Source: Thermoplasmata archaeon (GTDB lineage: Archaea; Thermoplasmatota; Thermoplasmata; Thermoplasmatales; Thermoplasmataceae). Taken from it: DNA of 5,617 bases. The position numbers were made by a program, and so were the translations under genes. Numbering within the stretch: position 1 is the stretch's first letter; every line of letters starts with the position of its first letter. The stretch covers positions 1 through 5,617 of the forward strand of contig JAKBQO010000106.1 of assembly GCA_021835185.1 (NCBI GenBank), read 5' to 3'. Below, piece by piece: positions 391 to 5,617 of the stretch. A model generated the notes under the pieces. That model ran no database searches. It saw nothing but the letters and a program-made list of their open reading frames with translations, and had not been told where the DNA came from.

Positions 391-1446
391 ATGTCTGGAA
401 TTGTAAGTTACGGGTCATATGTTCCAATATACAGGATAAAACCAGAGGAAATTGCCAGGATATGGGGCGACGATCCGGAAAAAATGAAGAATAATCTATT
501 TATATTAAGCAAATCGGTACCTTCACCGGATGAAGATGTTGCTTCTATTTCTGTGGAAGCGGCAAGAAATGCCCTTAAAAGAATAAATATAAATCCGGGA
601 GATATTGGCGCTATTTATGTTGGTTCAGAGTCACATCCATATGCCGTTAAACCGACAGCCACCATAGTGGCAGCTGCAATAGGGATGCCGCTTGAATACT
701 TTGCCGCAGATTATGAATTTGCATGCAAAGCAGGTACTGCCGGAATGCAGAATGTTAAGGCAATGGTTGATTCCGGTTATATCAAATATGGCATTGCTAT
801 TGGGTCAGATACATCGCAGGGTGCTCCAGGGGATGCTCTGGAATACAGTGCATCTGCGGGCGGAACAGCAATGATTATCGGAAAGGATAATGTAATTGCA
901 GAAATAAACGATACATTGTCAGTATCAACAGATACCCCTGATTTCTGGAGGAGGGAAGGAGAACCATATCCCCGTCATGGAGAAAGGTTTACAGGCGATC
1001 CCGGATACTTCAAGCACGTTTTAGCTGCCTCAAAGGCAATGATGGAAAGAATGGGAACAAAAAGCAGCGATTATGATTATGTTGTATTTCACCAGCCAAA
1101 TGGAAAATTCCCCACAAGGGCGGCAAAGATGCTTAATTTTACAGAAGAACAGTATAAAACTGGCCTTTTGACACCCTATATAGGGAATACATATTCAGGT
1201 TCTACAATGACCGGCCTATCAGCCATACTGGATGAAGCAAAACCGGGTGACAGGATTCTTGCAGTATCATTTGGTTCCGGTGCAGGCTCCGATGCCTTTG
1301 ATATAACAATAACAGAAAATATGAAAAATTACCATCGTGAAAACGCTCCAGGTGTAAGAAAAATGATTGAAAATGTGAAATTCATAGATTATGCCATATA
1401 TACAAAGTTTAGGAAAATACTGGTTATGGGTGATAGCCTTGAGTAA
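391..1446 (+). CDS. Hydroxymethylglutaryl-CoA synthase (archaeal type)
   Basis: This 351-residue enzyme condenses acetyl-CoA with acetoacetyl-CoA to HMG-CoA, the committed carbon-joining step of the mevalonate pathway that makes archaeal isoprenoid lipids. It acts in the cytoplasm. It has the thiolase-superfamily fold and the compact length of archaeal HMG-CoA synthases. The catalytic triad is intact: Glu80 in GSESHPY, nucleophile Cys112 in EFACKAG, and His234 in FHQPNGK. Other family landmarks are GNTYSGS at 265-271 and SFGSGAGSD at 293-301. The start is the first ATG, placed by a TATA box for leaderless transcription, and the protein begins with the usual [15 protein letters not shown] strand. 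Its last codons contain the ribosome binding site of the next gene and overlap that gene by 8 nt, so the two are translationally coupled. In characterised archaea this enzyme forms a complex with the thiolase and DUF35 protein encoded next. Confidence 0.95.
1428..1434 (+). promoter_or_regulatory. Ribosome binding site that fixes a TTG start for the thiolase gene
   Basis: GGGTGAT contains GGTGAT, complementary to the archaeal 16S rRNA 3' end (AUCACCUCC). It ends 4 nt before the TTG at 1439, ideal spacing for that codon. It lies within the end of the HMG-CoA synthase gene. The GTG at 1430 is part of this motif and the ATG at 1391 has no such motif, so neither is the likely start. Confidence 0.7.
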
Positions 1447-2602
1447 TGAAGTTTATATTATCGGCGCAGGTGAAACAAAGTTCGGTGAATTATGGGACAA
1501 ATCGTTGAGAAATCTGGCAGTTGAAGCTGGATTGAAGGCAGTTGAGGATGCAGGGATTTATTCAAAAGATATCGATGCAATTTATGGTGCAAATTCACTT
1601 GCCGGAATCATAAACATGCAGGAAAATATAGGTGCCCTGATCGCTGACTTTTCAGGTTTATCCGCTGAAGGAATACCTTCCTTAAGAGTAGAGTCATCTA
1701 CAGCTTCCGGAGGCGCAGCGTTGAGGGACGCATACCTCTCCATAAAATCTGGAGAATATGACGTAGTTGTAGTTGGTGGCGTAGAAAAAATGACAGATAT
1801 ACACGGAAGTGACATACTTGAAAAATCGTCATCCATTCTGGATCGGGAATGGGAAGCCTTTTTTGGGGCTACGCCTGCAGCAATGGCAGCGCTTATAGCC
1901 AGGAAATATATGCACGATTTTGGAGTTGAGAAAGAAGCACTATCAATGTTTTCCGTAAACGACCATCTTAATGGTTCAAAAAACCCGGACGCACAGTTCA
2001 GGAATAAATTAACCATACAGCAGGCTATGAATTCAACTGCAGTTGCTGACCCACTGAATATGATGGATTGCTCTCCAATGAGCGATGGTGCAGCTGCAGT
2101 GGTTCTGGCTTCCGAGAGCTTCATTAAGAAGAACAAACGCGAGGGAGTACGCATATTGAGTTCAGCTGTGGCAGAAGACTATCTTTCTGTTGGCTCTAGA
2201 AAATCTATATACACATTGAACTCCACAAAGCTTGCAGTTGAAAAGGCATTGCGGAAATCTGGGATAAAAAGGAACGATATATCATTTATGGAGGTTCATG
2301 ATTCATTTTCAATATTTGGTTTGCTGGAACTTGAAGACCTTGGATTCGCAGAAAAGGGCAAAGCAAAAGATCTTGTATACGATGAAATAAAGCTTAATGG
2401 CAGCATTCCTGTAAATCCCTCAGGCGGATTGAAAGCAAAGGGTGACCCATATGGTGCCGTTGGTGTTGGCCAGGCTGTAGATGCATACAGGCAGTTAAAG
2501 GGCAAGGCAGGCGATAACCAGATTAAGGATGCAAAATATGCACTTCTGCATAATATGGCTGGAACCGGGACATCGTCAATAATACATATACTGGGTGAAT
2601 AA
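1439..2602 (+). CDS. Thiolase-family protein with substituted active-site residues (acetoacetyl-CoA thiolase homologue)
   Basis: At 387 residues this has the full length of archaeal SCP2-type thiolases, which join two acetyl-CoA to give acetoacetyl-CoA for HMG-CoA synthase. Family landmarks are clear: [10 protein letters not shown] at 11-20, GGVEKMTD near residue 120, EDLGF around 300 and [10 protein letters not shown] at about 326-335. Yet the active site is altered. The nucleophile Cys, normally in E-x-A-C-A-S-G, is Thr88 in VESSTASGG. The HDCF motif is HDSF (His287 kept, Cys replaced by Ser289). The GHP histidine is Asp336 in GDP. These positions align without gaps, and there is no frameshift. 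Ordinary thiolase chemistry therefore looks lost. It may act as a scaffold holding the DUF35 protein and synthase together, or catalyse something else, with another thiolase encoded elsewhere making acetoacetyl-CoA. The TTG start at 1439 is chosen from its ribosome binding site. It overlaps the previous gene by 8 nt, and the next gene follows after 1 nt. Family is certain; activity is not. Confidence 0.9.
2593..2598 (+). promoter_or_regulatory. Ribosome binding site of the DUF35 gene
   Basis: GGGTGA, the same hexamer that precedes the thiolase start, lies 5 nt upstream of the ATG at 2604, inside the end of the thiolase gene. It supports 2604 as the start. The in-frame GTG at 2595 is part of this motif and would be a poor start. 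Confidence 0.65.
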
Positions 2603-2603
2603 A

Positions 2604-3008
2604 ATGACAGAGTTATCGAGAATCTGGAGAGAAACAGAGTATAGATACAATCTTATCGGATTTAAATGCAAAAATTGCGGGAATTCATATTTCCCACCGA
2701 GGGATGTATGCCCTGTATGCCATAGGGAATCTATAGGAAAAATGGAAAAAGTAAAATTCAGTGGCAATGGAGAAGTAATATCTTACACAGTTGTGCATGA
2801 TGCACCTCCAAGCTTTAAAAGGCAGGTACCCTATGTACTTGCGCTCATAAAGTTGTCAGAAGGCCCTGTAATTACTGCCCAGATAGTGGACTGTGATCCC
2901 GCAGATGTTGATATAGGGAAGAAGGTACATTCCGTTTTCAGGAAAATCAGGCAGGACGGGGACAGCGGTATAATAGAATATGGATATAAATTTGTATTAA
3001 ATCTTTAA
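2604..3008 (+). CDS. DUF35 OB-fold/zinc-ribbon acyl-CoA-associated protein of the thiolase-HMG-CoA synthase complex
   Basis: This 134-residue protein has the two-part DUF35 layout. An N-terminal helix leads to a rubredoxin-like zinc ribbon with Cys22-x2-Cys25 and Cys36-x2-Cys39, and an OB-fold follows at about 46-130, with the usual VISYTVVHDAPP strand and a GKKVHSVF segment near the end. In methanogens the homologue sits between acetoacetyl-CoA thiolase and HMG-CoA synthase and provides part of a shared CoA/pantetheine site, so that acetoacetyl-CoA passes from one enzyme to the other. The gene order here gives the same three partners in one transcript. The ATG at 2604 lies 1 nt after the thiolase stop and has a ribosome binding site; an upstream GTG at 2595 would add only three residues. 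All four zinc ligands are kept, so the protein looks functional even though its thiolase partner appears catalytically altered. Confidence 0.9.
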   Translation: MTELSRIWRETEYRYNLIGFKCKNCGNSYFPPRDVCPVCHRESIGKMEKVKFSGNGEVISYTVVHDAPPSFKRQVPYVLALIKLSEGPVITAQIVDCDPADVDIGKKVHSVFRKIRQDGDSGIIEYGYKFVLNL

Positions 3009-3184: not shown

Positions 3185-4009
3185 ATGACAGGTATGAAAA
3201 TGTTGATAGCACACACACCGGATCCGGATGACGCCTTTATGTTTTACGCCATGTTTGAGCATAAAATCAAGACATCATTTGAATATGACCAGGTAGTAAA
3301 AGATATAGAAACACTGAACAAGGAATCTGTAGATTTAAAGTACGACGTCACTGCAATATCTGCGAATGGATATATGCATGTTTCTGATAAATATGACCTG
3401 ACAACTTCTGGAGCAAGTTTTGGTATAAGTTATGGGCCACAGGTAATAGCCAAAAAAAATATTGACCTGAAAGGAAAGACTATAGCAAGCCCAGGAAAAT
3501 ACACTTCCGCAGAATTGCTGTACAGGATGTTTGCACCGGAAGCAGGCATATTAAAAGAGATACGCTTTGATAAAATCGTAAACGCAATTATGGAAAATGA
3601 AGTAGATGCTGGAATACTTATACATGATGAACAGTTGACTTATCAGGATAAGGGGCTTGTACCTGTTCTGAACCTTTACGATGAATGGAAAAAATATGCA
3701 GGGGACCTCCCTATACCCTTAGGATTTAATGCAATACGCAAGGATATGCCCATAGAGGATAAACTGAAATACAAAGCGGACTTTGAAAACTCAATAAAAT
3801 ATGCATTTGAACACGAAACTGACGCGGTAAAATACGCAATGAAATATTCAAGATACGATGACTTTGAGCTTGAAAGAAAGTTTATTTTAATGTATGTAAA
3901 TGAACTCTCGGTAGATTTCGGTGAAAAGGGCCGGAAGGCACTGGACCTCTATTATAAAAGGGCTGCAGAAAAAAATATAATTAAGCCATTTAAACCTACC
4001 ATAGTTTAA
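3185..4009 (+). CDS. mqnD: MqnA/MqnD-family protein, probable 1,4-dihydroxy-6-naphthoate synthase (futalosine pathway)
   Basis: This 274-residue protein has the two-lobed periplasmic-binding-protein fold reused as an enzyme in menaquinone synthesis. MqnD converts cyclic dehypoxanthine futalosine to 1,4-dihydroxy-6-naphthoate. It has no signal peptide, so it is cytoplasmic and not a transport binding protein. Landmarks are PDPDDAFMF at 12-20, SGASFG at 75-80, the SPGKYTSA loop at 102-109, DAGILIH with His147 in the position of the MqnD catalytic histidine, and PIPLG at 176-180. The motifs and length fit MqnD better than MqnA (chorismate dehydratase), but assignment within this superfamily by eye is not final. 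The gene is alone between a T-rich terminator and a hairpin/T-tract. The start at 3185 is the longest; the ATGs at 3194 and 3200 are serious rivals because the better TATA box points to about 3194 and conserved sequence begins there. The neighbouring bd oxidase gene fits a menaquinone-using respiratory chain. Confidence 0.8.
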   Translation: MTGMKMLIAHTPDPDDAFMFYAMFEHKIKTSFEYDQVVKDIETLNKESVDLKYDVTAISANGYMHVSDKYDLTTSGASFGISYGPQVIAKKNIDLKGKTIASPGKYTSAELLYRMFAPEAGILKEIRFDKIVNAIMENEVDAGILIHDEQLTYQDKGLVPVLNLYDEWKKYAGDLPIPLGFNAIRKDMPIEDKLKYKADFENSIKYAFEHETDAVKYAMKYSRYDDFELERKFILMYVNELSVDFGEKGRKALDLYYKRAAEKNIIKPFKPTIV

Positions 4010-4144: not shown

Positions 4145-5617
4145 ATGATAAACATGTTCAACATATCATACCCGGTTTGGGATAGTGCAATGTTTGCTTA
4201 CACTATATCCGCTCATATCTTGCTGGTATCGCTGAGTATGGGTCTGGCAATAACAGTAACTATAGCAGAATTCCTTGCACTGAAAAAGAAGGATAAATAT
4301 TATGATACACTTGCATACAAACTTTCAAAGGCTCTTGTGATATTCTTTGCAGTAGGAACTGCTTCAGGAACTGTAATGGCTATGGAATTATTCCTCTTCT
4401 GGCCATCCTTTATGAAGCTGGTTGGAGAAGTGGCCATGGGGCCATTCTATGTCGAAGTTTTCTCTTTCCTGCTTGAGGCTATAGCCCTTCCAATGTATGT
4501 ATATTTCTGGAAAGATTTCAAAAACAGGTGGGAACACTGGGGATTAAGCCTTGCAGTTACAATAGGCACATACCTATCTGCATTCACAGTTACTGAAATA
4601 AACGCATGGATGAATACACCTAATGGATTTAATGTCTCTGAATTTGTTACCAAAGGAGTAGTAACCAACGTTAATCCATTCGCTCCATTTATCACCGCTT
4701 CGACGGCAGCGGAGGAACTGCACATGTCAGGTGCTGTATACTACGCCGGTATAGCCATGATTCTCGGGTATCTTATATACAAATATTTGAAGACAACTAA
4801 CATGTCTGAAAAAATGATCTACCGGAGAGGAATAAATATCGCAGCAGTTTTTATGATCCTGGATATCATATATTTAGGAGCAACCGGTTCAAATGAACTT
4901 TCAACTTTAATGGTTATAGAACCTATAAAATACACAGCACTGGAACTTGACCTACATGCCACAATAGGGACATCATTCGCTACCATGGCACCGGAGCATA
5001 TATTCGGAGTATTAATAAATCATAAGCTTGCATATGCTCCTTCATTTCCATATGCCCAGTCATTGCTGGCATTTCCTTTAACATTCGGCAAAGGGTCTAT
5101 ACCCGGGCTTATACCTTTAACGACATATAAGGGCGTTACTGATTACGGAGTATGGCCACCTTATGTAGTGCACGATACCCTTGACCTTATGGTAGGATTC
5201 GGTGTTTTAATGGGATTATACTGGCTCTATGTCGTGGTACAGTATTTCAGGAAGAAAGACCCGTTAAGCCACAGGTTCACACTCCTTGGTGGGATAGCAG
5301 TTGCAATAATGGGAGTATTTACCATGGAAGATGGATGGTACACAGCCGAAGTTGGCAGAGTTCCATACATAATAAGATCACCTGTGCCCGGAGGTTTTGT
5401 TGTTGACGGTGTAAAACATTACGGTACTATGACAATTGCTCAGGCTGCCTCAACATCACCACTTGTGTTTCCACTTGGAATTGCAATTATAATATTCTAT
5501 CTCGCAGTATTCCCCTTAACGTTCTATTTCGCGGGAAAGGTAATGAAATTATCAAACGTGGACGAAGATCTTAAACTTGGTGAAGATGACATAAAAATGG
5601 AAGACGAAAGAAAGGCG
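4145..5617 (+). CDS. cydA: Cytochrome bd quinol oxidase subunit I (3' end beyond window)
   Basis: This multi-helix membrane protein is the catalytic subunit that oxidises quinol and reduces O2 to water without pumping protons. The 491 codons present run open to the window edge. By alignment to E. coli numbering, His24 matches His19 and Glu402 matches Glu445, the ligands of the high-spin hemes. Glu104 and Glu111 match Glu99 and Glu107. His193 and Met349 match His186 and Met393, the heme b558 ligands. Lys262 and Glu267 (K-x4-E) match the quinol residues Lys252 and Glu257, and Trp398 matches Trp441. The Q-loop after helix 6 is short. Differences are GRVPY at 404-408 instead of GRQPW, and Asp347 where E. 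coli has Arg391. The last helix spans about 440-463, and a charged cytoplasmic tail follows, so little is probably missing. A subunit II gene would be expected just downstream. The nearby MqnD gene suggests menaquinol as its substrate. Confidence 0.92.
   Translation, partial: MINMFNISYPVWDSAMFAYTISAHILLVSLSMGLAITVTIAEFLALKKKDKYYDTLAYKLSKALVIFFAVGTASGTVMAMELFLFWPSFMKLVGEVAMGPFYVEVFSFLLEAIALPMYVYFWKDFKNRWEHWGLSLAVTIGTYLSAFTVTEINAWMNTPNGFNVSEFVTKGVVTNVNPFAPFITASTAAEELHMSGAVYYAGIAMILGYLIYKYLKTTNMSEKMIYRRGINIAAVFMILDIIYLGATGSNELSTLMVIEPIKYTALELDLHATIGTSFATMAPEHIFGVLINHKLAYAPSFPYAQSLLAFPLTFGKGSIPGLIPLTTYKGVTDYGVWPPYVVHDTLDLMVGFGVLMGLYWLYVVVQYFRKKDPLSHRFTLLGGIAVAIMGVFTMEDGWYTAEVGRVPYIIRSPVPGGFVVDGVKHYGTMTIAQAASTSPLVFPLGIAIIIFYLAVFPLTFYFAGKVMKLSNVDEDLKLGEDDIKMEDERKA

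Follow-up and report, generated by a model that had tools for sequence, protein, structure and literature searches.

The 5,617-nucleotide stretch of contig JAKBQO010000106.1 analysed here (the window), from an archaeon of the Thermoplasmatales, carries three co-oriented genes in a row, for a 3-hydroxy-3-methylglutaryl-coenzyme A (HMG-CoA) synthase, a thiolase-fold protein and a DUF35 protein. Judged from its sequence, the middle protein is probably the thiolase subunit of the archaeal thiolase/DUF35/HMG-CoA synthase complex, conserved as a pseudoenzyme that has lost its catalysis. The basis for this reading is a lineage-wide loss of active-site residues, purifying selection on the gene, a retained operon with intact synthase and DUF35 proteins, a thiolase fold and, in most of the genomes concerned, a separate canonical thiolase. 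The features in question are:

391..1446, + strand: HMG-CoA synthase, archaeal type (TIGR00748, 562.2 bits, cut-off 353.35; SESH, FACKAG and FHQPN motifs)
1439..2602, + strand: thiolase-fold subunit without the catalytic Cys/Cys/His, a putative pseudo-thiolase (PRK06064, 515.7 bits, cut-off 420)
1700..1702, + strand: codon ACA, Thr88 at the position of the nucleophile Cys
2303..2305, + strand: codon TCA, Ser289 at the position of the HDC(F) Cys
2444..2446, + strand: codon GAC, Asp336 at the position of the GHP His
2595..3008, + strand: DUF35 subunit, zinc ribbon plus OB fold (PF01796, 74.7 bits; PF12172, 40 bits)

Loss of active-site residues in the operon thiolase

An earlier note on this DNA had described an intact reading frame in which Thr, Ser and Asp replace the Cys, Cys and His of a thiolase active site. 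Direct reading of the three codons, in frame with TTG 1439, bears this out, as do the homologs and an alignment with 6esq, the thiolase of the M. thermolithotrophicus complex, in which VEAACASG, VHDCFA and AAGHALGA align with the window motifs (the third counterpart being KGDPYG) and the Cys, Cys and His occupy the exact positions of Thr88, Ser289 and Asp336. The motif at residue 289 is VHDSFS; loss of the HDCF Cys is not decisive by itself, since HDA is found in P. furiosus 7yvy and in 25 of the 120 Cys-keeping relatives listed. The note had also allowed for a true nucleophile Cys elsewhere in the alignment: the sole Cys of the protein, C211 in a DCSP motif, is not at an equivalent site (7yvy has Ala there), and nothing points to a hidden nucleophile.

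The open frame spans 1391 to 2602, and translation from TTG 1439 yields a protein of 387 aa. GTG 1430 may be the actual start; the protein would then have 390 aa, as P0010 does, and only the residue numbering would shift. The protein falls below the cut-off of the NCBIfam model AcCoTHIOL_METTL, the methanogen acetyl-CoA acetyltransferase equivalog (436.4 vs 600 bits). Its single-chain model has a predicted local distance difference test score (pLDDT) of 94.2, and the best match in the PDB is 6esq. In the neighbouring synthase the catalytic Glu80, Cys112 and His234 are all intact, as are zinc Cys 25/28/39/42 of the DUF35 protein, for which ATG 2604 is the likely start. The window locus accordingly shares with the archaeal complex co-oriented neighbours, the 6esq subunit fold, active synthase residues and the DUF35 zinc site.

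Conservation among close homologs

The window comes from an acid-loving Ferroplasma. The nearest named genome is that of Ferroplasma acidarmanus Fer1 (NC_021592.1, L001), with a DNA identity of 98.1% over 5.6 kb, and it was used as a proxy for the window's own genome; genome G038 is nearer still (99.4% over the 4.1 kb compared). The thiolase-fold protein is 100% identical to that of Fer1 and 99% identical to that of G038.

Among the best 120 of 5132 homologs (E up to 1e-60), whose source names include Ferroplasma, Acidiplasma, Picrophilus, Thermoplasma and Thermogymnomonas, residue 88 is Thr (63%) or Ser (37%) and never Cys, residue 289 is Ser in 119 and Ala in one, and residue 336 is Asn, Asp or Tyr in 119 and His in one. 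A Thr/Ser/Asp-type set is thus common to the Thermoplasmatales relatives, as the earlier note had proposed to check, and the close relatives with Cys that would have spoken for a merely local defect are absent from these 120. A second Cys-less group, of 134 sequences, has Gly at the nucleophile site in 90% and a variable residue 336, and of the positions that are fixed in Cys-keepers, 26 have drifted in one or more of the Cys-less groups. Cys-keeping relatives for comparison were drawn from a homolog search seeded with Cys-keeping sequences; Cys is present in 120/120 listed, which demonstrates that such relatives exist widely and is not a frequency, and their source names include Methanohalophilus, Methanocellales and Aenigmarchaeota. 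The ratio of non-synonymous to synonymous substitution rates (dN/dS) of the dead thiolase gene, roughly 0.012-0.046, indicates purifying selection.

Distribution of the Cys-less operon

We surveyed 200 Thermoplasmata genomes, of which 191 held a homolog at E 1e-30 and 177 a synthase-neighbouring thiolase that could be read. Among the other 23, a synthase match at 1e-20 was absent from 15, three had a synthase without a readable thiolase (G055, G104, G153), and G057, G062 and G159 (weak or partial synthase) as well as G091 and G141 were left out of the count. An extension to the phylum searched 116 genomes; 85 had a synthase, 25 of them already in the class set, and 53 were read, leaving seven unread (G217, G225, G234, G281, G283, G287, G289).

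The nucleophile Cys is lost in 170/177 operon thiolases of the class, being replaced by Gly, Thr, Ser, Asp, Glu, Asn or Ala, and kept in 7. All three residues are gone in 146 of the 170; His336 survives in 17, Cys289 without His336 in another 2, and 5 were not fully readable. On the sequences, the Cys-less operon subunit is far wider than the window's organism, extending over most of the class Thermoplasmata examined. With three residues gone and the loss of the nucleophile fixed in the closest homologs and in these operons, the analysis supports the view, already put forward in the note, that the window protein cannot be a normal thiolase.

Its partners have been kept. Over both surveys (233 loci), wherever the sequence was readable, the synthase retains its Glu in 222/222, Cys in 223/223 and His in 228/228 loci, the four DUF35 zinc Cys are present in 220 to 222 of 222, and synthase and thiolase genes are co-oriented in all 229 loci holding both. 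At L043, from the Thermogymnomonas acidicola JCM 13583 draft, the thiolase and synthase frames appear broken, probably through assembly errors; P0094, from a further record of T. acidicola, is intact.

Separate canonical thiolases

A canonical thiolase, defined as a TIGR01930 match over cut-off, was found in 182/200 genomes of the class: in 162/170 that had lost the operon Cys vs 1/7 that had kept it. In the 53 further genomes of the phylum the figures are 23/26 and 10/27, and in both surveys joined 185/196 and 11/34. A canonical thiolase is therefore usual where the operon Cys is lost, yet its presence alone does not bring the loss. The nucleophile Cys and GHP His were present in 34/34 canonical loci inspected (those with the top-scoring matches), some of which lacked the exact NEAF and CxGGG patterns.

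The separate thiolase that the note had postulated was traced in the proxy genome. Fer1 has three canonical thiolases besides the operon gene: a PRK06366 acetyl-CoA C-acetyltransferase equivalog at ~353.8 kb (739.7 bits, cut-off 627; NVVCASGM, NEAF, GHPLG and CHGGG), and two PRK06445 enzymes at ~356.1 and 1492 kb (RACSSS, NEAF, GHPLG and CVGGG). G038 also has a TIGR01930 match over cut-off. A short piece of a thiolase N-terminus that contains a TGA (G001:C1:71689-71886) is also present in Fer1. Beside the synthase of G093 lie, divergently oriented, a gene resembling 3-hydroxybutyryl-CoA dehydrogenase and a canonical thiolase that includes a masked stretch.

Phylogeny of the nucleophile state

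Trees were rooted with Cys-keeping Aenigmatarchaeota as outgroup, excluding rows of <300 aa and near-duplicates. The nucleophile state changes twice in the class tree and four times in the wider tree. In the class tree the window's group stands beside a Cys-keeping group of C-A-H type that has no canonical thiolase (G017, G056, G157, G174) and beside the half-way Ser-Ala-His operon thiolases L107 and L108 (G093, G197), which keep GHP. In the wider tree those groups are separated by G218, a C-A-H row on a long branch whose placement is unsure. Also in the wider tree, an operon thiolase with full Cys/Cys/His, L368 (G224), is nested in a Cys-less clade and may be a regain, a transfer or a late survivor. 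Repeated loss is the simpler reading of the tree, in which change counts cannot tell gain from loss.

Comparison with known systems

The formation of acetoacetyl-CoA from acetyl-CoA is unfavourable. In the methanogen complex, thiolase and synthase are held by DUF35 and have a common CoA site where they meet (PMC12329534; PMC6996347), and the shared site means that acetoacetyl-CoA is not released (PMC12329534). The M. thermolithotrophicus complex (6esq, 6et9) is a close counterpart of the window locus and differs in its thiolase, which keeps the nucleophile Cys, the HDC Cys and the active-site His, all absent from the window protein.

The Pseudomonas system PhlABC/PpATase (PMC6392133; PMC2954200) is alike in its three-part architecture and in having one thiolase-superfamily subunit without the catalytic Cys. 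It is a mirror image, however: its dead subunit is the synthase-like PhlA (Gly115 for Cys) and its thiolase, PhlC, is active, whereas the window has a dead thiolase and an intact synthase. The aldolases Ltp2-ChsH2(DUF35) and Sal-Shy(DUF35) likewise combine a thiolase fold with DUF35, and in Sal the nucleophile position is Gly; Ltp2 reportedly has Gly there too. Unlike the window protein, which has HDSF, they carry a Tyr in YDHF/YDCY and cleave steroid side chains. Membership among these aldolases was rejected: the window's VHDSFS lacks the Tyr base of their motif (PMC12329534).

TbSLP, the SCP2-thiolase-like protein of Trypanosoma brucei, is also a thiolase fold without the SCP2-thiolase cysteines, and was crystallised with acetoacetyl-CoA; it differs in its YDCF motif, its lack of a DUF35 partner and its identity of ~25%. 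ST0096 of Sulfolobus tokodaii (4yzo), an archaeal thiolase-like protein whose nucleophile position is Ser, belongs to a separate family; the 120 relatives listed of 4285 (P0122-P0241) have Ser, Met and His at the three sites. This family, from Sulfolobales and some Thermoplasmata, is in these 120 another fixed Cys-less archaeal thiolase-like family, and Thermogymnomonas carries an ST0096-type protein besides the operon type (P0182, P0094). On the - strand of Fer1 at ~673 kb lies a second Cys-less thiolase-like protein (L313:5108-6376; PRK06365-like, 693.6 bits, cut-off 695; GGGATGG and LYDAYT), followed by a DUF35-type protein (L313:4658-5107; PF01796, 41.4 bits, cut-off 27.1), making another dead-looking thiolase/DUF35 pair.

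A probable conserved pseudo-thiolase and its alternatives

If the subunit is a pseudoenzyme, it would still bind DUF35 and the synthase and so keep the assembly together, and with its retained CoA-binding half it would complete the CoA site that it and the synthase share. Acetoacetyl-CoA would come from a stand-alone thiolase, for which the PRK06366 enzyme is the likeliest candidate in Fer1, and would enter the synthase from outside, and the step from two acetyl-CoA would no longer be channelled inside the complex. Somewhat short of an even chance, in our estimate, is the broader proposition that the first committed complex of lipid synthesis has been uncoupled in most of the class, with catalysis lost, on the simplest reading, at least twice in lineages with a stand-alone thiolase and the subunit retained as an obligate cofactor without catalysis, to complete the synthase CoA site or sense acyl-CoA.

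Several points weigh against a pseudoenzyme. Thr/Ser88 and Ser289 are themselves conserved within the window's order, which pure drift would not predict, and 11 Cys-less genomes (8/170 and 3/26) have no canonical thiolase over cut-off, exceptions that may be due to incomplete assemblies, partial matches being present in G207 and G251. For one pair from Thermoplasma, evolution is faster in the dead gene (dN/dS 0.019) than in the synthase (0.006), and synonymous rates above 1 in many pairs make all such ratios rough. With only about 4 nucleophile-state changes, the association between Cys loss and a canonical thiolase, strong across the genomes counted, rests on few independent origins; because an independent-pairs test (3-4 pairs) was not significant, Fisher values of 5e-7, 1.6e-4 and 1.8e-15 overstate the evidence, and we do not regard the association as proven by phylogeny. 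The support consists of sequence and single-chain models.

Decay or misassembly, which missing catalytic residues might suggest, is refuted by the same states in the best 120 homologs, the identity to Fer1 and G038, the low dN/dS and the unbroken co-orientation of the genes, and we give it almost no weight. It is unlikely, if less easily dismissed, that the subunit is a relaxed leftover, retained only since its loss would destabilise DUF35 and the synthase and playing no CoA role: protection of the assembly alone would yield the same pattern, and the drift at positions fixed in Cys-keepers fits it, but this is a weaker form of the pseudoenzyme reading and indistinguishable from it on these data. 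A regulatory sensor, whose vestigial pocket would bind CoA, acetyl-CoA or acetoacetyl-CoA and modulate the synthase, finds a precedent in TbSLP, crystallised with malonyl-CoA as well as acetoacetyl-CoA (PDB titles; PMC12329534); sequence cannot separate a sensor from a scaffold, and we consider this role quite improbable.

Lower still in our estimation stands an enzyme with altered chemistry, using a Ser/Thr acyl-enzyme or acting as a decarboxylase or aldolase-like lyase on a CoA ester. The fixation of Thr/Ser88 (120) and Ser289 (119) in the best homologs would suit it, as would Sal, a DUF35-partnered aldolase with Gly for the nucleophile Cys that uses Tyr and Cys at other positions (PMC12329534). 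The window subunit, however, lacks the YDHF/YDCY motif, an ordinary thiolase is present in most Cys-less genomes, and the predominance of Gly at the nucleophile in the second Cys-less group, together with its variable residue 336, indicates no shared new active site. Scaffold, regulatory subunit and new chemistry were the options left by the earlier note; since that Gly argues against a shared acyl-enzyme chemistry, the scaffold is favoured.

A lineage-wide operon with a non-catalytic thiolase directly tests the channelling idea of the methanogen complex: either the complex can do without channelling and serves some other end, or a new function has fallen to the dead subunit. Cys-keeping sister lineages provide natural controls. 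The acetyl-CoA C-acetyltransferase label that some sources give to these proteins is misleading for the 196 Cys-less genomes found, and metabolic models of such genomes should use the stand-alone thiolase. We found no description of a dead thiolase next to an intact synthase, as a state fixed in most of a class, in the literature searched, which was available in part, included PMC6996347, PMC12329534, PMC3533463, PMC2954200, PMC6392133, PMC3857490 and PMC4244643, and did not cover the primary methanogen-complex paper.

Neighbouring genes

Downstream of the operon, positions 3185-4009 of the window encode a VitK2_biosynth (menaquinone biosynthesis) protein (223.7 bits), and an open-ended reading frame at 4145-5617 encodes subunit I of a cytochrome bd terminal oxidase (PF01654, 242.6 bits).
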